Shown: positions 11,779 through 37,613 of the stretch, piece after piece
Position numbering within the stretch: the stretch's first letter is position 1
How the letters are laid out: each line of letters opens with the position of its first letter
Translations under genes and position numbers: made by a program
The notes under the pieces: model-generated
Database searches by the model: none
Seen by the model: only the letters and a program-made list of their open reading frames with translations
What the model was told of the DNA's origin: nothing
Origin: Erythrobacter sp.
GTDB taxonomy: Bacteria > Pseudomonadota > Alphaproteobacteria > Sphingomonadales > Sphingomonadaceae
Length of the DNA stretch: 43,433 nt
NCBI GenBank assembly: GCA_030065195.1
Contig: JASJDE010000018.1
Location: 1 to 43,433 of the forward strand
Direction of reading: 5' to 3'

Positions 11779-13040
11779 TTGCTCAGTTTTCCTTCAAGCT
11801 CCTTGAGCGCCTGTGCGGCGCGCAGAATGTCGGATGGTGATTTGGCGTCGCGCAATCGGGCCGCGCGCTGCGAAAAGGTTTCTTCCCTGGGCAATCGCGC
11901 CTTCAGAGCCGCGTCGAGGGAGTCGGGGTCATGCTTCGTCAGCCCCATCGCGGTAGCCAGTCGCCGCGCCGACAATTCGGTGTAAGGCTCCGCCAGCAAC
12001 CGCAGGCGTCCGGCGCGCATGATCAGGCCGGCCCCATTGGTCACCAGCCGCGATTTGCCGAAGGCGATCGCCGGCCCGTCCGCAACCGCCGGGCCGAAGC
12101 GTTGGAACGAACGCCATCCCACTATTATCATCGCCACGATCAGGCAGAGCGTCGCGGCGAGGAAAGGCGGCTGGAACGCAAGAGTCAGCAGGTTGACCGA
12201 CGCGCCGAGGCCATTGAGTGTTAGATCGAAGGTCACGGGATAGTCTCGTCCGTAACCTGCTTCTTCGATCAGCTTCATCGCAAGCGTGGCCCTATTGCCG
12301 TCCGACAAGCCGTAATTGTTCATCAAATCGGGTTCGATCACGATGGTGACGGATTCGGTGTCGATAGAGTCGTCGAACATGTCGACATTGGAAAGCTTCA
12401 CGACCAGTCGCCGCGCGGCGCCGTCGACGATCAGCGCGCGATGATCCGCTTTCGGCGCTGCGCCGACCACGGTCTGGTCCGGGAGTTCCCCTTGCGACTG
12501 TAACCCGGCCCAAGTCGGCGTCTCATCGGTCGCGATTTGAGCCTCGATCGCAAAGGGCTCGTCGAGCTCCTCGGCCCAGTCCGGCGGGTAGGCATCGCCC
12601 AGTTGGACCCAGCCATCCTTGACCTGGCTTCTCACTTCCAGCGGAGTGTCGGGCGGGAAACCGAAGGCGATCCATTTGGGGAGGATAACCATTGTCGGTC
12701 CGACATAGGCGCGGTCGCGCACTATCTTGCTCAGTTCTTCCGCGTCGGAGAAAGCCGGGGGCGTCAGGACCAGGAGATCGGGTGTATCCAGCCCGCTCAT
12801 TTCGCGGGATCGTTTGACCTCATAGCCATCCGCTTCGAGCAGACGGACCAGCGCGGAGTAGCCGTTCAGACCGTTTGCCGCTGCGTGCGCTGCGCCATTG
12901 TTGTCCCTGCCTCCCGTGTCGCCCGTGCTGAGAAAATACAGCATAGCGATGAAGGCCGTGAAGCCGATAACGACCATGCCGAGCACCGCGCCCCGCCCGA
13001 ACGGCCCGCTGCCGCGACGCTGGCCGATTGCGGCGTTCAT
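11775..13040 (-). CDS. DUF4350-domain membrane protein
   Basis: A 421-aa protein with an N-terminal membrane anchor (about residues 18-37), an extracytoplasmic DUF4350 domain (NGLNGYSALVRLLEADGYEVKRSR, then LLVLTPPAF and an SDAEELSKIVRDRAYVGPTMVILPKW stretch), a second helix near residue 305 (FLAATLCLIVAMIIVGW), and a cytoplasmic helical tail. It resembles the middle gene of MoxR-DUF58 clusters. The ATG at 13040 overlaps the DUF4129 stop by 4 bp. The role in ligand or cell-envelope sensing is speculative. Confidence 0.86.
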   Translation of the reverse strand: MNAAIGQRRGSGPFGRGAVLGMVVIGFTAFIAMLYFLSTGDTGGRDNNGAAHAAANGLNGYSALVRLLEADGYEVKRSREMSGLDTPDLLVLTPPAFSDAEELSKIVRDRAYVGPTMVILPKWIAFGFPPDTPLEVRSQVKDGWVQLGDAYPPDWAEELDEPFAIEAQIATDETPTWAGLQSQGELPDQTVVGAAPKADHRALIVDGAARRLVVKLSNVDMFDDSIDTESVTIVIEPDLMNNYGLSDGNRATLAMKLIEEAGYGRDYPVTFDLTLNGLGASVNLLTLAFQPPFLAATLCLIVAMIIVGWRSFQRFGPAVADGPAIAFGKSRLVTNGAGLIMRAGRLRLLAEPYTELSARRLATAMGLTKHDPDSLDAALKARLPREETFSQRAARLRDAKSPSDILRAAQALKELEGKLSK

Positions 13041-17709: not shown

Positions 17710-17783
17710 TGCCCCGTCGTCTAATGGTAAGACTACGGACTCTGACTCCGTCAATTGAGGTTCGAATCCTCACGGGGCATCCA
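17710..17783 (+). tRNA. trnQ: tRNA-Gln (anticodon CTG)
   Basis: The acceptor arms TGCCCCG (17710-17716) and CGGGGCA (17773-17779) pair fully. The anticodon stem ACGGA/TCCGT encloses the loop CTCTGAC, giving anticodon CTG, which reads CAG (Gln). The T arm contains GGTTCGAATCC, and CCA is encoded at 17781-17783. No intron or mismatch is seen. No integrated element follows it: the 103 bp to the convergent kinase stop hold no gene. Confidence 0.97.
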
Positions 17784-31390: not shown

Positions 31391-32677
31391 TTGACTGACA
31401 AGGGTGAGGTGGCACCGGCCGCGCTTGGGCAACGCTTCGAACTGGTGACAATCCGATTGCCGGTTGTCCTGACGTTTGCAGCGCTCATCATTGGTCTCAG
31501 CATGGGCGTGCTGCTTGCCGATGGCGGTCTTCCCGACTGGCTGCACGAAGTCGTGGCACTGGTCGGCAGCCTGTGGCTGCGCGCGCTCCAGATGACGATC
31601 ATTCCCCTCGTCGCCAGTCTGCTGGTGCTTGGAATCGCGCAAATGATCGGGGCGGCCCGCGCCGGGGCGGCAGCGGCACGATTCCTCGCCCTCGTCTTCG
31701 GGGTCCTGATTGCAGGCGGCATCTTCACGGCGATCGTCTTGCCGCTCGTTCTGCAGGTCGTCCCCATTCCAGAAGCCGCTGCGGGTTTCCTCGCGGATGT
31801 GCCGGACGGCGAACAGGAAGTTCCGGGAGCGCTCGAATTCCTGGGCTCGCTGGTTGCACCCAATGTGATCTCGGCAGCCGCCGAGACGGCCATGCTGCCA
31901 TTGACCATCTTTTTCGCTTTGTTCGCCGTGGCGATCACGCGCTTGCCCGAATCCCAGAGCGAGCGCTTGCTTGGTTTCTTCCATGCCCTCGCGAACACCA
32001 TGCTGCTGATCATCGGCTGGGTGTTGTGGCTAGCACCGATCGGCGTGCTCGCGCTTGCATTCGGAGTGGGTCTGCGCAGCGGGGGAGGCGCATTTGCCGC
32101 ACTGGCCCACTACATCATTGTTGTATCCGCGATGGGCGGGTTCGTCTTGGTTCTGGCCTATGCGCTCGCTTGGCTGTTCGGCGGGATCAATCCTGTGCGC
32201 TTCGCAGGGGCCGTGGTTCCCGCACAGGCGGTCGCGATCTCCACGCAAAGCTCGCTCGCCAGTCTTCCCGCCATGCTCGACAGTGCGACGCGTCTGAAAT
32301 TGCGGCAGAGCACCAGCGAATTCGTGTTGCCGCTTGCCGTTGCTATCTTCCGGTCGACCAGTGTGGCTATGAACCTTGCGGTCGCGCTTTACGTCGCAGC
32401 TCTGGCGGGGATCGAGGTATCGGCACCGCTGATGGTGGTGGGGATTGCGGTGGCCGTGATCATCAGCATTGGCTCGGTGAGCCTGCCGGGATCGATCAGT
32501 TTCGTCGTCTCCATCGGTCCCATTGCCCTCGCGATGGGTGTTCCGATTGAGCCGCTCGCGCTGCTGGTCGCCGTCGAAATGCTGCCCGACATCATGCGTA
32601 CGCTTGCAAATGTCACCATGAACATCGCGGTGACATCGGTGGTGGATCGCGGCGCGGACGCATCCGACGCCGCCTAA
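31391..32677 (+). CDS. dicarboxylate/amino acid:cation symporter (DAACS) family
   Basis: A 428-aa transporter with eight or more membrane helices. The first loop signature is STQSSLASLPAML (family SS-x-x-T/S-L-P), and the end has LPDIMRTLANVTMNIAV. The sodium-site motif NMDGT of GltPh/DctA is not conserved; the matching helix reads STSVAMNLAVALYV, so coupling may differ. I start it at TTG 31391 with AAAGGA eight bases upstream; GTG 31409 after GGGTGAG is the alternative, and an in-frame ATG at 31280 would overlap glmM and is unlikely. It converges on ecfG with a 4-bp overlap. Confidence 0.87.
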   Translation: MTDKGEVAPAALGQRFELVTIRLPVVLTFAALIIGLSMGVLLADGGLPDWLHEVVALVGSLWLRALQMTIIPLVASLLVLGIAQMIGAARAGAAAARFLALVFGVLIAGGIFTAIVLPLVLQVVPIPEAAAGFLADVPDGEQEVPGALEFLGSLVAPNVISAAAETAMLPLTIFFALFAVAITRLPESQSERLLGFFHALANTMLLIIGWVLWLAPIGVLALAFGVGLRSGGGAFAALAHYIIVVSAMGGFVLVLAYALAWLFGGINPVRFAGAVVPAQAVAISTQSSLASLPAMLDSATRLKLRQSTSEFVLPLAVAIFRSTSVAMNLAVALYVAALAGIEVSAPLMVVGIAVAVIISIGSVSLPGSISFVVSIGPIALAMGVPIEPLALLVAVEMLPDIMRTLANVTMNIAVTSVVDRGADASDAA

Positions 32678-33291
32678 CCCTTGGCTGCTACACCCTTGCC
32701 CGCTGCGACATCGTCAAGCTCTTCCAGGATGGCGCGGTGCGCGGTGTCATCTTCGATCGAGCGCTGAGGGATGTTGCCTTCGGCCAGCATCGAGTTAAGC
32801 GCTGCGCGGGCACGTCCGACGCGGCTTTTGATGGTGCCCACCGCACAGCCGCAGATCTGGGCTGCCTCTTCATAGGAGAACCCGCCAGCTCCCACCAGCA
32901 GGAGTGCCTCGCGACGCTCCGGCGGAAGAGTCAGCAGCGCCCGGTGCATGTCGGAAAGATGGATCGGCTCTTCCTGGCCGGCCGGGGCAGTCAATATGCG
33001 CTCGGCGACGCCCTCATCATATTCGCCGCGAAACCGGTTCCGGCGCATATCCGTCAGGTAGGCGTTGCGGAGTATAACGAACGTCCAGGCCCGCATCGAC
33101 GTGCCCGGTTCGAATCGGTCTTGCGCCGCCCATGCCTTGAGCAAAGCCTCCTGCACCAAATCGTCGGCCATATCCGGGCGTCCGCACAATCCACGCGCAA
33201 ATGCACGAAGGTGCGGGACCACTTCAGTGAGTTCGCGCTTGAACGCGGCCTTTTCGCTGGCCGAACGTTTCGGAGGTCCGTCGTCTGCCAT
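32674..33291 (-). CDS. ecfG: general stress sigma factor EcfG
   Basis: A 205-aa ECF sigma factor of the EcfG group that directs RNA polymerase to GGAAC-N16/17-CGTT promoters. Region 2 is LRAFARGLCGRPDMADDLVQEALLKAWAAQDRFEPGTSMRAWTFVILRNAYLTDMRR; region 4 is ALLTLPPERREALLLVGAGGFSYEEAAQICGCAVGTIKSRVGRARAAL. Its ATG shares one base with the NepR stop (TGATG), so the two are translated together. NepR holds it inactive until PhyR is phosphorylated. The 3' end overlaps the convergent transporter by 4 bp. Confidence 0.96.
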   Translation of the reverse strand: MADDGPPKRSASEKAAFKRELTEVVPHLRAFARGLCGRPDMADDLVQEALLKAWAAQDRFEPGTSMRAWTFVILRNAYLTDMRRNRFRGEYDEGVAERILTAPAGQEEPIHLSDMHRALLTLPPERREALLLVGAGGFSYEEAAQICGCAVGTIKSRVGRARAALNSMLAEGNIPQRSIEDDTAHRAILEELDDVAAGKGVAAKG

Positions 33292-33509
33292 CAGGGCGCG
33301 TTATCACCGTGGTCGGCACGGGCAGAGCCGGACGAAGCACCCGTATCGTCTAGCTTGTCCAGAAGATCCTTGAATGCGTCGGGAAGGGGCTCCTCAACGA
33401 CCGAATCATACAGCTGCTTCAATCCATTCGCCCAGTCAGGAGGCTGCATATCGGGCGAGTCCGTTTCATTCCCCGGTATGCGCTCGCTGGATTTCTTGCT
33501 GGATGTCAT
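33291..33509 (-). CDS. nepR: anti-sigma factor NepR
   Basis: A 72-aa protein that binds EcfG and is displaced by PhyR. The diagnostic helix motif is NGLKQLYDSVVEEPLPDAFKDLLDKLD (residues about 28-54) flanked by disordered, polar ends, as in the family. No strong ribosome-binding site precedes ATG 33509. It is first in the nepR-ecfG operon, which has a consensus EcfG promoter about 95 bp upstream, making a positive feedback loop. Confidence 0.95.
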   Translation of the reverse strand: MTSSKKSSERIPGNETDSPDMQPPDWANGLKQLYDSVVEEPLPDAFKDLLDKLDDTGASSGSARADHGDNAP

Positions 33510-33601
33510 ACGCTCGCTTGACCACCTCGTCCCTCGATCTCGCGTCCCGAGCGCGAGTATCCATTTGTCGATATAGCGACGATTGTTGATCGGGCAAAAT
33601 G

Positions 33602-33628
33602 GGAACGAACAAGTGGTTGCTCGGTTCC
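33602..33628. promoter_or_regulatory. overlapping bidirectional EcfG-type promoter
   Basis: Reading the minus strand, GGAAC (33628-33624) is followed after exactly 16 bp by CGTT (33607-33604), a perfect EcfG promoter for nepR-ecfG. Reading the plus strand, GGAAC (33602-33606) is followed after 16 bp by GGTT (33623-33626), one base off consensus, for the HWE kinase gene. Each strand's -35 overlaps the other's -10, so the element is nearly symmetric. The plus promoter lies downstream of an ATG at 33599, which argues that the kinase starts at 33656. Confidence 0.8.
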
Positions 33629-33655
33629 CTCAAACACCCGGGGATGGTGGGGGTC

Positions 33656-35329
33656 ATGACTGAAAACGCGAATCAAAACCTGGAGGCACCCGCTGTCAGT
33701 CGTTCGCGACGGTGGCTAATCCTCTTCCCTCGCGCGGTTCCTGTAGCGATATTCCTCGCCATTGCGGCCATCACGGCTTTGAGCGTTTATGCGATCGAGA
33801 GCAATGCGCGGGCCCGGGAGAAGGCCCAAATCGGCGATTATGCCCGATCTGTTGCAAGCGCGCTGGAAAGGCGTGGTAGCAGCTATTCGTCCTATATCCG
33901 CGCCGGCGCGGCCTTCTTTTCTAGCTTCGATGAGGTCCGCCCCCGGATGTTCCGCCAGTTCGTCGCCGAATTGAGGCTCGATGTCGAGTATCGCGGGGCA
34001 GAGGGAATTGGCTGGATCGAAGTGGTCCAGCCCGGCGAAGTTGCCGAATATCTCGATCGGCAACGCGGCGATCAGTCGTCCTTTCAGGATATTAGACCGC
34101 AGATCGGCTCAGCTGGCGAAGCGCTCGCCCCCGTTACCTATTTTTCCCCCGACACTGCGCGCAATCGCCGCGCGCTCGGATTCGATATGTATTCCGATCC
34201 TGTGCGGGCGGCAGCGCTTGAAGAGGCGCGACGCACCGTGCGCCCCACCGCATCCGGCCGTGTGGTCCTGGCGCAGGAAGGAGTAGGCGAAACGCCGGGC
34301 TTCGTCGTCTTTATGCCGGTCTACAAACCGATCGACAGCGACCAACGGCTTGCCGGATTCGTCTACAGCCCGTTCAATGCCGAGCGTTTTCTGGACTCTG
34401 CCATCGATCTGTCGGAGCCAACCGAATTCGGCGTTAAGTTGTATGACGGAGCCGCCAGTCTCGAGAACCTGCTGGTGTCACGCGGTCTCGATAGCGAACA
34501 TCATCGCCGCGTCGAACAACCCGTTACGATAGCCAACCGACAGTTGCTGCTGGTGGTCGAAGCGCCGCATGCACGCACTCTGGCACCGCTTTCCATGGTT
34601 ACATTGATGTTCGGCATCGCTGTCGCGAGTCTGTTGATGCTGCTTGCGCGCCTCCTGACCCGGCAAGCTGCCGAGGACCAGGCGCGGCTGGAATTCTTCG
34701 AGGAGCAGTATTCGATCCGCAATTCGTTGACCCGAGAACTCAATCACAGGGTCAAGAACACGCTGGCCAATGTGCTTTCGATCATGTCGCTTACGCGTCG
34801 GAGAACGACCGATCTCGATGAATTTGCCGACAGCCTCGAGGGGCGCATTCGCGCTCTGTCCGCCACGCACGACCTGCTTACTCGGTCCGATTGGGGCACC
34901 ATCCCGCTGCAAGCCGTAATCGAAGCCGAATTGCAGCATTTCAAAGTTGCCAGCGAGCAGTCCGTGACGCTCGACGGGCCTCACGTCGATCTCGCACCAA
35001 ACAACGCCCTGTCATTCGGCCTTGCGATCCATGAATTGGCGACCAATGCCGCGAAATACGGGGCCTTGAGTGTGCCCGGCGGCTCGGTGTTCGTGAATTG
35101 GGAACTGACTGACGACGATCTGGCCGAAGTTGAATGGCGCGAGCGTCAAGGACCTACAGTGAGCGAATCACGCAAGCGCGGGTTTGGGACCGAGCTGATC
35201 GAAAAGATCGTCGCACACGAGCTACGGCAACCGGTGCAACTGGATTTCGATCCGAAGGGCGTGCGGTGCCTGCTCAGGGTGCCCATTCGCAGGCTGGGCG
35301 ATTTCCAGATTCGGGCCGACGAGCAGTAA
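33656..35329 (+). CDS. CHASE-domain HWE-family sensor histidine kinase of the GSR
   Basis: A 557-aa kinase. A membrane helix (about residues 21-45), a periplasmic CHASE-type domain (RRGSSYSSYIRAGAAFFSSFDEVRPRMFRQFV... GIGWIEVVQPGEVAEYL), and a second helix (near 320) precede the HWE catalytic part: RELNHRVKNTLANVLS with phosphoacceptor His364, HELATNAAKYGALS and the W-x-E motif VEWRERQGP. Such kinases phosphorylate PhyR-type regulators. ATG 33656 follows GGTGGGGGTC; ATG 33599 is possible but would put the promoter inside the gene. It is divergent from nepR-ecfG and converges on phyR. Its ligand is unknown. Confidence 0.92.
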   Translation: MTENANQNLEAPAVSRSRRWLILFPRAVPVAIFLAIAAITALSVYAIESNARAREKAQIGDYARSVASALERRGSSYSSYIRAGAAFFSSFDEVRPRMFRQFVAELRLDVEYRGAEGIGWIEVVQPGEVAEYLDRQRGDQSSFQDIRPQIGSAGEALAPVTYFSPDTARNRRALGFDMYSDPVRAAALEEARRTVRPTASGRVVLAQEGVGETPGFVVFMPVYKPIDSDQRLAGFVYSPFNAERFLDSAIDLSEPTEFGVKLYDGAASLENLLVSRGLDSEHHRRVEQPVTIANRQLLLVVEAPHARTLAPLSMVTLMFGIAVASLLMLLARLLTRQAAEDQARLEFFEEQYSIRNSLTRELNHRVKNTLANVLSIMSLTRRRTTDLDEFADSLEGRIRALSATHDLLTRSDWGTIPLQAVIEAELQHFKVASEQSVTLDGPHVDLAPNNALSFGLAIHELATNAAKYGALSVPGGSVFVNWELTDDDLAEVEWRERQGPTVSESRKRGFGTELIEKIVAHELRQPVQLDFDPKGVRCLLRVPIRRLGDFQIRADEQ

Positions 35330-35340
35330 GCCTGCAGAAT

Positions 35341-36135
35341 TCAATCGAGTGGCCGGCTGGATCCGAAAAACAGTGCCTGGCTGATGGCGGCGCGCACCGT
35401 TCGCTCTTCGAATGGCTTGGTGACGAGATAGGTCGGTTCCGGGCGGTCTCCGGTTAGGAGCCGCTCCGGGAATGCGGTAATGAAGATAACCGGCACGCTG
35501 CCGATGGCGAGAATATCGTCGACTGCATCGAGACCGGAGGAACCGTCGGCCAGTTGTATGTCCGCAAGCACAAGCCCCGGATTTCCCTTGGCTACGATTT
35601 CCTGGGCCTGGGTGCGAGTGGCGGCAGTGCCATAGATTTCGTGGCCCAGGGACTGGACCATATCTTCAAGCTGCATCGAGATCAGCGGCTCGTCTTCGAT
35701 AATCAGCACCGAGGTTGCTTGTTCGCGATCGATTTCGCTGACCGCCTCATTGACGAGAGCTTCGATCTCGGCGGGTTTGAGATCCATGATTTCCGCTGCC
35801 TGGACAACGGTGAAATCCTCAAGCGTCGTGAGAAGCAATGCCTGTCTATTGAGCGGTGTTATGGCTCCGAGCCGATCCTGAGCGCCGAGTTCGTGTTCGC
35901 TCGGGCTCTCGTTTCCGTCTTCGATCTGGAGATAGGCGCTCGACCAGACTTTGTTGAAAGCACGGTAGAGCGGGATCCGTCCGCCATCGAGCGACGCCTT
36001 CAGGTCTTCGTCCTCCAAGACGGCTTCGAGCGTCGCCCTTACGAACGCATCGCCGGTTCCCTGCGAACCGGTCAGCGCTCGCGCATAGCGGCGCAGGAAA
36101 GGAAGGCTTGTTGCTACCTGTTGACCCAGATTCAT
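35341..36135 (-). CDS. phyR: PhyR anti-anti-sigma response regulator
   Basis: A 264-aa protein that sequesters NepR when phosphorylated. Residues 1-135 are a sigma-like domain (regions resembling ECF sigma-2 and sigma-4: LPFLRRYARALTGSQGTGDAFVRATLEAVL and LNRQALLLTTLEDFTVVQAAEIMDLKPAEIEALVNEA) and residues 140-264 a receiver domain (VLIIEDEP, phosphoacceptor Asp192 in LVLADIQ, Thr220, Lys240). ATG 36135 follows AAGGAACG. It converges on the kinase with 11 bp between stops. I find no EcfG consensus promoter directly upstream. Confidence 0.95.
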   Translation of the reverse strand: MNLGQQVATSLPFLRRYARALTGSQGTGDAFVRATLEAVLEDEDLKASLDGGRIPLYRAFNKVWSSAYLQIEDGNESPSEHELGAQDRLGAITPLNRQALLLTTLEDFTVVQAAEIMDLKPAEIEALVNEAVSEIDREQATSVLIIEDEPLISMQLEDMVQSLGHEIYGTAATRTQAQEIVAKGNPGLVLADIQLADGSSGLDAVDDILAIGSVPVIFITAFPERLLTGDRPEPTYLVTKPFEERTVRAAISQALFFGSSRPLD

Positions 36136-36288
36136 GACGTTCCTTGCTTTCTCGCGAGCGAATGAATTGCTCCGCGGTATGTAACGATTCGAGGCCATAG
36201 CGCCAGATCGCGCAACCGTCGCCCCATCGCGCAAAATCGCTGATGAAAGGCTGGTCCCGTTCGGCTCAAGAAAAAATTCGAAATGTCG

Positions 36289-36313
36289 GGAACCGCCTTT
36301 CCAGACGTGCATT
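36289..36313 (+). promoter_or_regulatory. EcfG-like promoter of candidate small RNA
   Basis: GGAAC (36289-36293) and CATT (36310-36313) are spaced by exactly 16 bp, one base off the EcfG consensus CGTT. The position would start transcription near 36319, just before the hairpin and terminator described below. Confidence 0.5.
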
Positions 36314-36318
36314 TCTTC

Positions 36319-36406
36319 TTTGTCACCGCCGAGACCCCCCTCCCGTCCAAGCGGCTGGTGATACGATCCCGAAAGGCCTCCACTTTTCCGAGTGGAGGCC
36401 TTTTTT
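36319..36406 (+). ncRNA. candidate small regulatory RNA of the GSR locus
   Basis: The predicted transcript is about 88 nt. It starts a few bases after the EcfG-like -10, folds into a hairpin at 36323-36361 (TCACCGCCG pairing with CGGCTGGTGA, one bulged C), and ends in the terminator at 36372-36406. The 20-nt hairpin loop is rich in C (a run of six C, then TCCC), an anti-Shine-Dalgarno-like sequence of the kind used by many alphaproteobacterial trans-acting small RNAs. No ORF with a ribosome-binding site is present. This is a structural inference; expression is untested. Confidence 0.5.
36372..36406 (+). terminator. strong intrinsic terminator
   Basis: AAAGGCCTCCACT (36372-36384) pairs perfectly with AGTGGAGGCCTTT (36391-36403) across a 6-nt loop, and is followed by T residues to 36406. 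It is plus-strand oriented; the minus-strand side lacks a good T tract. No plus-strand protein gene precedes it, which is why a small RNA is proposed. Confidence 0.85.
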
Positions 36407-36443
36407 CTTTGGCGGCTGACACAGGGTCATGCTCAGTATCCTG

Positions 36444-37613
36444 TCAACCGATGGGTTTCTCGTAGATCGCATATTCCCGATTGATACTGCTTTCTATCGT
36501 GTCCGCGATCGCCACCATTCCCTGATTGTCTTCGAGGATCCACCCGATCTCGCCACGTTTGGAATGGAACTTCTCGGCCGCTTCGGTCCGGATGTAGCTG
36601 ATCATCATGAAAGCGAGCTGGCTCGCCATCCGCGAATTGTGGAATTCTTTCAGGACACCCATCAATGGCACCCGCATACCTGAGCCCTTTGGACGTCTGA
36701 GCCACCGCAGCATGTGGAACCAACCGAACGGAAATAGCTTGCCGTCGATCTTGGCGAGAACGTGGTTCAAGTCGGGGAAAGTCAGCATGAACGCCACTGG
36801 TTTTCCGTCGACTTCGGCGATCATGTTCAGCTCTTCATGGATAATCGGCTTCAGCTTCTTACCGGCATAGGCGACTTCGTCCGGCGTGAACGGCACAAAG
36901 CCCCAGTTATCGGACCATGCATCGTTGAGGATCGAAAGGACGATCTCGGCCTCTTCATCCCAACGCGCCTTGTTAACCCGGCGCACGTTGATCCGGCTAT
37001 TGCGTTCGCCCGATTTGACGATCCGCTGCACCAGCGGAGGGAACTCTTCGCTGATGTCGAGATCGTAGGTGTAGAGCGTCTTGGCGAGAGAAAATTCCGC
37101 GTTTTCGATCCACGGCTGGTACGCGCTTGGATGATGTCCCATCATGACCATCGGAGAATGGTCATGGCCTTTGATCAGCAAGCCGGGTTCCTCCCACATC
37201 GCCATGGAGATTGGACCGAGAACGCGTGTCATGCCGTGTTGTTTCAGCCACTCTTCGGCCGTTTGCAGGAGAACGCGTCCGATCGCTTCGTCCTCTGCGT
37301 CGAAATAGCCAAACATTCCTGTGCCCGGCCCAAAGCCTTGTTCCGGCGATGCAGCCAGCGCCAGCTCGTCGATATGCGCGGCAATGCGACCGACGGCCTT
37401 CCCATTCCGGTGCGCGATAAAAAGCTGTGCCTTTGCATGGCCGAACAGCGGGTTCTTGCCCGGATCGACCAATTCGAGCTGCTCGCTTCGCAATTGCGGC
37501 ACCGAATGTTCCAGCCGCGCGGCAAAGTCGCGACCGAGATCGACGAAGCGTGCCCTCCCTTTCTTGTCGCTCACCGCCTCAATGCTTATCTGCGCATCCG
37601 CCACGCTAGCCAT
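36444..37613 (-). CDS. GNAT-like protein of unknown function (sphingomonad type)
   Basis: A 389-aa soluble protein. Residues about 60-170 look like a divergent GNAT fold (AKAQLFIAHRNGKAVGRIAAHIDE, GMFGYFDAEDEAIGRVLLQTAEEWLKQHG), with PISMAMWEEPGLLIKG after it. The C-terminal half repeats GNAT-like features, so a tandem domain is possible. I recognise the broad type from alphaproteobacterial genomes, where the annotation is uninformative. ATG 37613 is chosen at MASVADAQIS. It is divergent from the second desaturase. Confidence 0.65.
   Translation of the reverse strand: MASVADAQISIEAVSDKKGRARFVDLGRDFAARLEHSVPQLRSEQLELVDPGKNPLFGHAKAQLFIAHRNGKAVGRIAAHIDELALAASPEQGFGPGTGMFGYFDAEDEAIGRVLLQTAEEWLKQHGMTRVLGPISMAMWEEPGLLIKGHDHSPMVMMGHHPSAYQPWIENAEFSLAKTLYTYDLDISEEFPPLVQRIVKSGERNSRINVRRVNKARWDEEAEIVLSILNDAWSDNWGFVPFTPDEVAYAGKKLKPIIHEELNMIAEVDGKPVAFMLTFPDLNHVLAKIDGKLFPFGWFHMLRWLRRPKGSGMRVPLMGVLKEFHNSRMASQLAFMMISYIRTEAAEKFHSKRGEIGWILEDNQGMVAIADTIESSINREYAIYEKPIG

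Follow-up and report, generated by a model that had tools for sequence, protein, structure and literature searches.

A putative EcfG-controlled small RNA with a C-rich loop beside phyR in Erythrobacter and related sphingomonads

Genomic context of the element

The 43,433 nt stretch of Erythrobacter sp. DNA analysed here (hereafter the window) carries a general stress response (GSR) locus, made up of genes for EcfG, NepR, an HWE histidine kinase and PhyR (Table 1). The GSR is a main survival programme of the Alphaproteobacteria, and it is established that upon stress phosphorylated PhyR takes NepR off EcfG. Beyond phyR lies a gap of 308 bp, which separates the start of this gene (36135) from the end of the next (36444), an acetyltransferase gene with homologues in 109 of the 118 named loci considered below (among the matches listed). 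The open frame of phyR extends further upstream to an ATG at 36312; however, its start was taken as 36135 because the PhyR matches of relatives begin there.

A reading of this DNA made without database searches (hereafter the sequence-only reading) had described the gap as free of plus-strand genes, and this was borne out. The single plus-strand ORF of ≥ 60 aa over the gap (36283–36465) crosses the hairpin described below, and such a frame is broken by changes of single bases in C-tract length, which were seen in the named loci among the matches listed. As C-tract length differs in this manner among relatives, a coding role for the plus-strand element was ruled out.

Table 1. Features of the GSR locus and of the predicted RNA in the window
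Feature	Position	Strand	Evidence
Predicted small RNA gene, type I GSR C-loop RNA, ~88 nt	36320..36407	+	Model R1 match, 106.7 bits, E 1e-21; alignment A1
5′ hairpin, arms 36321–36331 and 36352–36363, bulged T36356	36321..36363	+	Helix 1 of alignment A2
20-nt C-rich loop, CCCCCCUCCC at 36335–36344, proposed mRNA-pairing seed	36332..36351	+	A1
Single-stranded linker CGAUCCC (DNA CGATCCC), possible second contact region	36364..36370	+	A1
Intrinsic terminator, stem–loop 36371–36404, T-tract 36401–36406	36371..36406	+	Terminator scan; A2 covariation
EcfG-type promoter: GGAAC 36289–36293, 16-nt spacer, CATT 36310–36313	36289..36313	+	Motif and comparison
phyR, anti-anti-sigma response regulator, divergent neighbour	35341..36135	−	Pfam PhyR_sigma2, PhyR_sigma-like, Response_reg
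CHASE-domain HWE histidine kinase of the GSR locus	33599..35329	+	Pfam
nepR, anti-sigma factor	33291..33509	−	Pfam NepR, E 1.5e-15
ecfG, general stress sigma factor	32674..33291	−	Sigma70 region 2 and 4 domains; adjoins nepR
EcfG-type promoter by motif, GGAAC-N16-CGTT, upstream of nepR-ecfG	33604..33628	−	Motif scan
GNAT-type acetyltransferase, convergent downstream neighbour	36444..37610	−	Pfam Acetyltransf_1, weak, 24.4 bits

Architecture and conservation of the predicted RNA

On the plus strand of the gap we located an element with the parts of a small RNA, whose 5′ end (36320) was placed by promoter spacing. The sequence-only reading had proposed a hairpin with a C-rich 20-nt loop and, downstream of it, a plus-strand terminator with a 13-bp perfect stem and a T tract; both are present. 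The loop is closed by TGTCACCGCCG/CGGCtGGTGATA and contains the anti-Shine–Dalgarno (anti-SD) core CCUCC, and the terminator stem (AAAGGCCTCCACT/AGTGGAGGCCTTT) consists of 13 perfect pairs followed by T6. A 90-nt fold had an energy of −41.1 kcal/mol (z −6.2), which was equalled by none of 200 shuffled sequences. Taken from this one sequence, two of the parts were weak: there were six terminator-like sites in the window against 3.4 expected, and the motif GGAAC-N15–17-CRTT occurred twice against 1.9 expected, no better than chance. Both became significant once relatives were compared.

A blastn query of 131 bases found matches in 50 of the 119 family genomes sampled, a count that includes the genome of the window itself. 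In alignment A1, formed from the loci of the best 30 of these 50 genomes, 52 columns are invariant and the sequence outside the gene diverges; RNAalifold returned 25 pairs, eight of which stay paired despite changes in both bases. The loop is invariant in A1 except at its last base and where some members carry one or two additional pyrimidines. The linker CGAUCCC is invariant in A1 too, and it is kept in diverged members (genomes G236, G270, G285 and G292); among the matches listed, small variations in it occur in a few named loci (L110 and L116, for instance).

At E 0.001, matches to model R1 were obtained in 70 of the 246 genomes from the order. Over 289 genomes of the class the model matched three genomes of the own family and, weakly (25.6–30.9 bits), three others. 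Two class-level matches (L062 and L064) were read by eye as terminator look-alikes and rejected; also set aside was a weak match in genome G546 (L063:1516), which has a CCCCCCCTCCC loop and a strong terminator, with no GGAAC box found upstream. Additionally, at least 118 stretches from named genomes fitted a DNA pattern. Their titles comprise genera of the Erythrobacteraceae (Erythrobacter, Qipengyuania, Porphyrobacter, Altererythrobacter, Croceicoccus, Pontixanthobacter and others), Novosphingobium, a single Blastomonas and MAGs titled only at a higher rank, and Erythrobacter litoralis was not among the titles of the 118 matches listed. Loop conservation in these named loci is by construction, because the exact loop pattern was used to choose them; the promoter and linkage figures are independent of this selection. 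Counts of promoters, linkage and C-tract length refer to the 118 listed loci, those of −10 box types and acetyltransferase distances to the first 80, and the named and unnamed sets share some genomes (e.g. L008 and L147).

In alignment A2 (100 loci, 94 distinct), which was fitted to the model structure and hence leans towards it, 99.1 % of cells pair, compared with 37.7–54.3 % when partners were slid, and none of 500 shuffles reached any of five covariation measures. The bulk of the covariation comes from the terminator helix, in which 12 of 14 pairs are changed on both sides. Helix 1, the 5′ hairpin, has 99.6 % of its cells paired in A2 and is nearly invariant: six of its 11 pairs never vary, three vary on one side, one shows a double change and one departs only by unpaired cells. 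The exchanges seen were G-U/A-U/G-C at one pair and a single C-G to U-A double change. Of the two properties that the sequence-only reading had singled out for checking, conservation of the loop next to phyR was found, whereas covariation of the hairpin stem is small within type I.

Larger stem changes occur in the diverged elements of G236 and G270 (genus g96), where the outer UCACC/GGUGA is kept and the inner ACUGG/CCGGU stands in place of GCCG/CGGC. These elements lie beside phyR and have another C-rich loop, a CGAUCCCG linker and a CGTT −10 box; neither has a T-tract directly after the terminator stem, which is a point against the explanation favoured below. As to a loss of loop and stem where flanking genes are conserved, the opposite was found in Erythrobacteraceae and Novosphingobium, in which loop, stem, linker, promoter boxes and the place beside phyR are all kept. 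An RNA architecture is shown by sequence and covariation, and 36320–36407 (+) is almost certainly a small-RNA gene.

Promoter and linkage to phyR

The sequence-only reading had placed GGAAC-N16-CATT, one base from the EcfG consensus, ahead of an 88-nt transcript. The motif is present as described, and its box stands at a near-fixed distance in relatives: GGAAC-N16/17 with a −10-like element lies upstream of the core in 117 of the 118 named loci (among the matches listed), the lone miss having just 22 nt of upstream sequence. With the stricter −10 element [CTG][AG]TT, 108 of these loci were still positive, and 29 permuted boxes gave a mean of 0.66 and a maximum of 8 (for CGGAA) of the 118. From the start of GGAAC to TCAC there are 34 nt in 112 of the listed loci, 35 in four and 36 in one. 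Identity over 112 listed loci was 95.4 % in the boxes (GGAAC and three −10 bases), 41.8 % in the spacer and 47.1 % in the 20 nt upstream.

Among the first 80 of the at least 118 named loci the −10 box is mostly CATT, and the eight loci with CGTT are all in records titled Novosphingobium. For Sphingopyxis granuli, the GSR consensus is given as GGAAC-N16-CGTT, with CATT as a natural EcfG −10 variant, and a change from CGTT to CATT is reported to have reduced in vitro transcription of one promoter (PMC7083833). That the −10 box in the window is CATT, one base off CGTT, is a point against the explanation favoured below. Nevertheless, the conserved boxes make it very probable that the small RNA is under EcfG control.

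PhyR is present in all 70 R1-positive genomes (of 246), and in 69 of them the RNA lies divergent from phyR, 145–1573 bp off its start. There are 72 R1 matches in the 70 genomes; the three that are not placed at phyR are weak (two in G270 and a second one in G280). The weak second matches in G270 and G280 were judged to be due to chance; the diverged G270 element itself adjoins phyR. All 66 genomes with a PhyR ≥ 70 % identical to that of the window carry the RNA, whilst six PhyR-less genomes of the RNA-bearing genera g1 and g96, from among 20 listed of 97 PhyR-less genomes, are without it (G224, G218, G228, G235, G239 and G300). A point against is provided by two g96 genomes (G296 and G308), in which PhyR is present and an R1 match absent. 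Amongst the 118 named loci listed, PhyR was found in 106, always divergent and within 3 kb; the other 12 have < 900 bases on that side.

The distances between the RNA and phyR fall into two groups, 145–321 and 954–1573 bp, with the RNA itself unchanged; it therefore behaves as a gene of its own. In Qipengyuania loci (L086, L107, L130 and others) the RNA is set further apart from both neighbours than in the window, by an additional ~800 bp towards phyR and ~600 bp towards the acetyltransferase gene. Genome G224, which belongs to the same genus and is given as 100 % complete, has neither PhyR (best match E 4.5e-4) nor the RNA, an apparent joint loss of both in one close relative.

Comparison with known RNAs

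No named sRNA family had been recognized in the element by the sequence-only reading. In agreement with this, Rfam 15 held no match at gathering score for the RNA element, and membership of its families was ruled out as all scores fell below the gathering cut-offs. Sub-threshold matches were ctRNA_p42d (RF00489; terminator part only, 26.1 bits versus a gathering score of 50), CC1840 (RF01521; over the whole element, 24.7 bits versus 50) and suhB/MmgR (RF00519; over the whole element, 15 bits versus 41); RF01521 matched none of the 289 class genomes. The only gathering-score Rfam match in the window was a tRNA gene at 17710–17780 (+).

The GSR-linked RNA GsrN of Caulobacter crescentus was compared with the type I RNA by its published description. 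GsrN is described as an RNA of ~100 nt with an EcfG/sigT-dependent promoter and a 5′ hairpin that exposes six tandem C in its loop; the loop is its best conserved part and pairs with G-rich sites such as the katG leader (PMC5869019). According to the same source, linkage to the GSR locus is typical in Caulobacteraceae, not in C. crescentus itself, and BLASTn homologues were found only in Caulobacteraceae, candidates in Rhizobiaceae and elsewhere being proposed by locus (PMC5869019). The small-RNA arm of the GSR was worked out in this system, and the case without such an RNA in that 2018 eLife paper is an Erythrobacter: E. litoralis, for which it gives no apparent gsrN-like gene (PMC5869019).

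The type I RNA resembles GsrN in its EcfG-type promoter by motif (117/118 named loci, among the matches listed), its C-rich exposed 5′ loop with six tandem C, its linkage to the ecfG-nepR-phyR locus (69/70 R1-positive genomes) and its layout of a 5′ C-loop hairpin, an exposed linker and a terminator. Unlike in GsrN, pairing with the katG leader is not supported: in 21 leaders of the same genus (out of 30 katG loci, with the katG fragment of the own genome left out), the loop duplex had a mean of −16.7 kcal/mol versus −19.4 kcal/mol for scrambled loops and −19.1 kcal/mol for a stretch inside genes. This pairing, weaker than that of scrambled loops, speaks against katG as a target, by a test that is weak, as start codons followed a simple rule and most of the genomes were not checked for the RNA. 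The analogy with GsrN drawn in the sequence-only reading is thus a good one in design (promoter, six tandem C and locus linkage); this likeness does not amount to membership of the GsrN family, for which neither a sequence relationship nor katG pairing was established.

C-rich, anti-SD-like motifs in hairpin loops are also a feature of the cuckoo, alpha-r14 and CcsR RNAs. In alpha-r14 (NfeR1) an ultraconserved CCUCCUCCC, the motif that defines this group, is described in three hairpins, the stems of which differ whilst the motif stays, and this RNA has a sigma-70-type promoter (PMC10746234); CcsR1–4 are described in an operon with a DUF1127 gene, with an RpoHI/RpoHII promoter (PMC10253847). 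In contrast to these, the type I RNA has one such loop and an EcfG-type promoter. The alpha-r14 motif is absent from it, the loop being CCCCCCUCCC, invariant in A1, and the diverged members differ from that motif too. No DUF1127 gene of the CcsR type was present among six neighbouring proteins scanned.

Proposed function and alternative explanations

Conservation, promoter boxes and linkage to phyR support the earlier reading of this element as a GSR small RNA. Our favoured explanation is that 36320–36407 (+) specifies a trans-acting, GsrN-like small RNA of the GSR, to which we give a probability of roughly three in four. Upon stress, PhyR~P would free EcfG, which would transcribe the RNA from GGAAC-N16-CATT, as the conservation of this motif suggests, and transcription would end at the intrinsic terminator (36371–36406). 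The 5′ hairpin would display the single-stranded CCCCCCUCCC loop, which, by analogy with GsrN, would pair with G-rich stretches of mRNA leaders, including ribosome-binding sites, and so may alter the translation or stability of target mRNAs; the CGAUCCC linker is a second candidate contact. Action on mRNAs via the C-loop is probable by the same analogy; the targets and the direction of regulation are inferred. Within the window, apart from the gene, three sites carry 9-mers complementary to the loop, and an 8-mer of this kind is found shortly before an ATG at 12917 (−).

It is possible, at rather less than even odds, that the loop is mainly a true anti-SD sequence, which occludes GGAGG and represses many mRNAs like alpha-r14 and AbcR, as opposed to activating a few, the way GsrN acts on katG. 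This is a narrower form of the favoured explanation, and the odds of the two overlap. The CCUCC in the loop speaks for it, as do the negative katG-leader test and the silencing through CCUCCUCCC loops described for NfeR1 (PMC10746234). The diverged loops, however, keep pyrimidine runs and not always CCUCC: G236 has CCCCCAACCACCCCCCGC and G285 has UUCUUCUCCC, whilst G270 retains CCUCC. As pyrimidine runs are kept without a constant CCUCC, pairing with G-tracts suits the data better than strict SD mimicry.

We consider it improbable that the RNA is a decoy or sponge for another RNA or an RNA-binding protein and acts without mRNA pairing. The strong conservation of loop and linker, as well as the twin C-loops of the type II family described below, would also fit a ligand, but GsrN, the closest described analogue, is reported to pair with mRNA (PMC5869019). 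It is very unlikely that the element works on the minus strand as a G-rich 5′ leader of phyR, with incidental plus-strand features: the minus strand does read GGACGGGAGGGGGG upstream of phyR, yet both the promoter boxes and the T-tract face in the plus-strand direction, and in many relatives the element lies 954–1573 bp from the phyR start instead of 145–321 bp. Finally, that it is merely the terminator of the acetyltransferase gene with a chance hairpin is barely credible, since, even though an inverted repeat could work both ways and the terminator scan barely exceeded chance expectation, conservation is highest in the 5′ hairpin and linker whilst terminator bases vary, the T-tract is on the plus side only, and the distance to the acetyltransferase gene ranges from ~0.1 to 2.5 kb (first 80 of at least 118 named loci).

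Should the type I RNA and the type II RNAs described below be expressed, an RNA arm would be a regular part of the sphingomonad GSR, and an effector may have escaped the EcfG regulon studies made there: neither ‘sRNA’ nor ‘small RNA’ occurs in the main texts of the EcfG papers on Sphingomonas melonis and Sphingopyxis granuli. Neither type I nor type II is described in titles and abstract openings of the open-licence PMC papers listed, which is not proof of absence. In this branch, the stress response may depend on RNAs new to sphingomonads.

Further C-loop elements in sphingomonads

We scanned 80 PhyR loci (≤ 7.8 kb each; seven of type I and 73 picked others, G012, G021 and G076 being already known to show such an element) for GGAAC-N16/17-[CTG][AG]TT at ≤ 140 nt upstream of a C-rich hairpin loop. 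The scan was positive at each of the seven type I loci and at 43 of the other 73. With permuted −35 boxes the mean count was 1.6 and the highest 10 of 73, the latter for CGGAA, which presumably scored through its overlap with CGGAAC. When stems were filtered more strictly 42 loci remained, and 39 of these form a coherent family (type II), mostly 2.0–2.4 kb from the phyR start. Such a second RNA family in other sphingomonads had not been anticipated by the sequence-only reading.

Type II elements (e.g. L239:6346–6453, +) have two hairpins with a C-run in each loop, the second being a terminator-like stem, and share the core GGATAGCGACCTTTTGCCCCCCCGCTCTCGCTATCC; in alignment A3, which comprises 26 of the 39 sequences, pairing is preserved despite changes in both bases in 14 of 23 pairs. 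They are like type I in having an EcfG-type promoter and C-rich hairpin loops and in often lying near phyR, on the same side; they are unlike it in their two C-run hairpins, and type II genomes gave no R1 match. Model R2 matched one of the 289 class genomes, of the own family, and neither R1 nor R2 had a strong match outside the own family in this sample. R2 also matched 23 of 33 chosen genomes, most of them without a phyR-linked copy in the scan: four matches lie within ~3 kb of a listed PhyR and 19 on another contig or ≥ 500 kb off, by a PhyR list from which the second PhyR of G219 is absent. At 19 of 20 type II loci inspected, 16 of the 20 away from phyR, GGAAC-N15–18-NRTT stands 4–5 nt before the model start; this promoter type therefore travels with the RNA.

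Further designs with an EcfG-type promoter and a C-loop were seen in the phyR region of G076, G258 and G012 (L238:4443–4560, L233 and L293:2259–2440 on the minus strand, respectively); the contig of G012 that carries its further design also contains a type II match (43.4 bits). In Rfam, at E ≤ 1, nothing reached gathering score for three type II loci, two of the further designs and one diverged type I locus, six loci in all; on the L293 design there were sub-threshold matches, the best being ncr1175 (30.9 bits, cut-off 60). Outside the order, two of 40 PhyR loci were positive, both of genus g130, which does not exceed the best permuted boxes (mean 0.45, maximum 2). The two loci (L327:5599 and L330:5692) are alike, each with an EcfG-like promoter near phyR and then a long hairpin with the loop GCCCC(C)AGCCCCUUCGACA.

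A wider reading is that nearly all sphingomonads have a second arm of the GSR in the form of EcfG-driven C-loop RNAs, acting as broad regulators of translation by G-tract pairing. It would comprise two families under the same promoter type, with one C-loop in Erythrobacteraceae and Novosphingobium versus two elsewhere, which have no detected sequence similarity and often share the same locus. We hold this tentatively, at just short of an even chance. Turnover of the stem under a kept C-loop, as in G236 and G270, would mean either a fast-evolving alphaproteobacterial GsrN superfamily or repeated convergence. Provided that they are expressed, the RNAs would offer two natural C-loop designs for studying target choice. 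In both families an AT-rich, UP-element-like tract lies ~5–20 nt upstream of the promoter, at ~36270–36284 in the window and likewise in many relatives.
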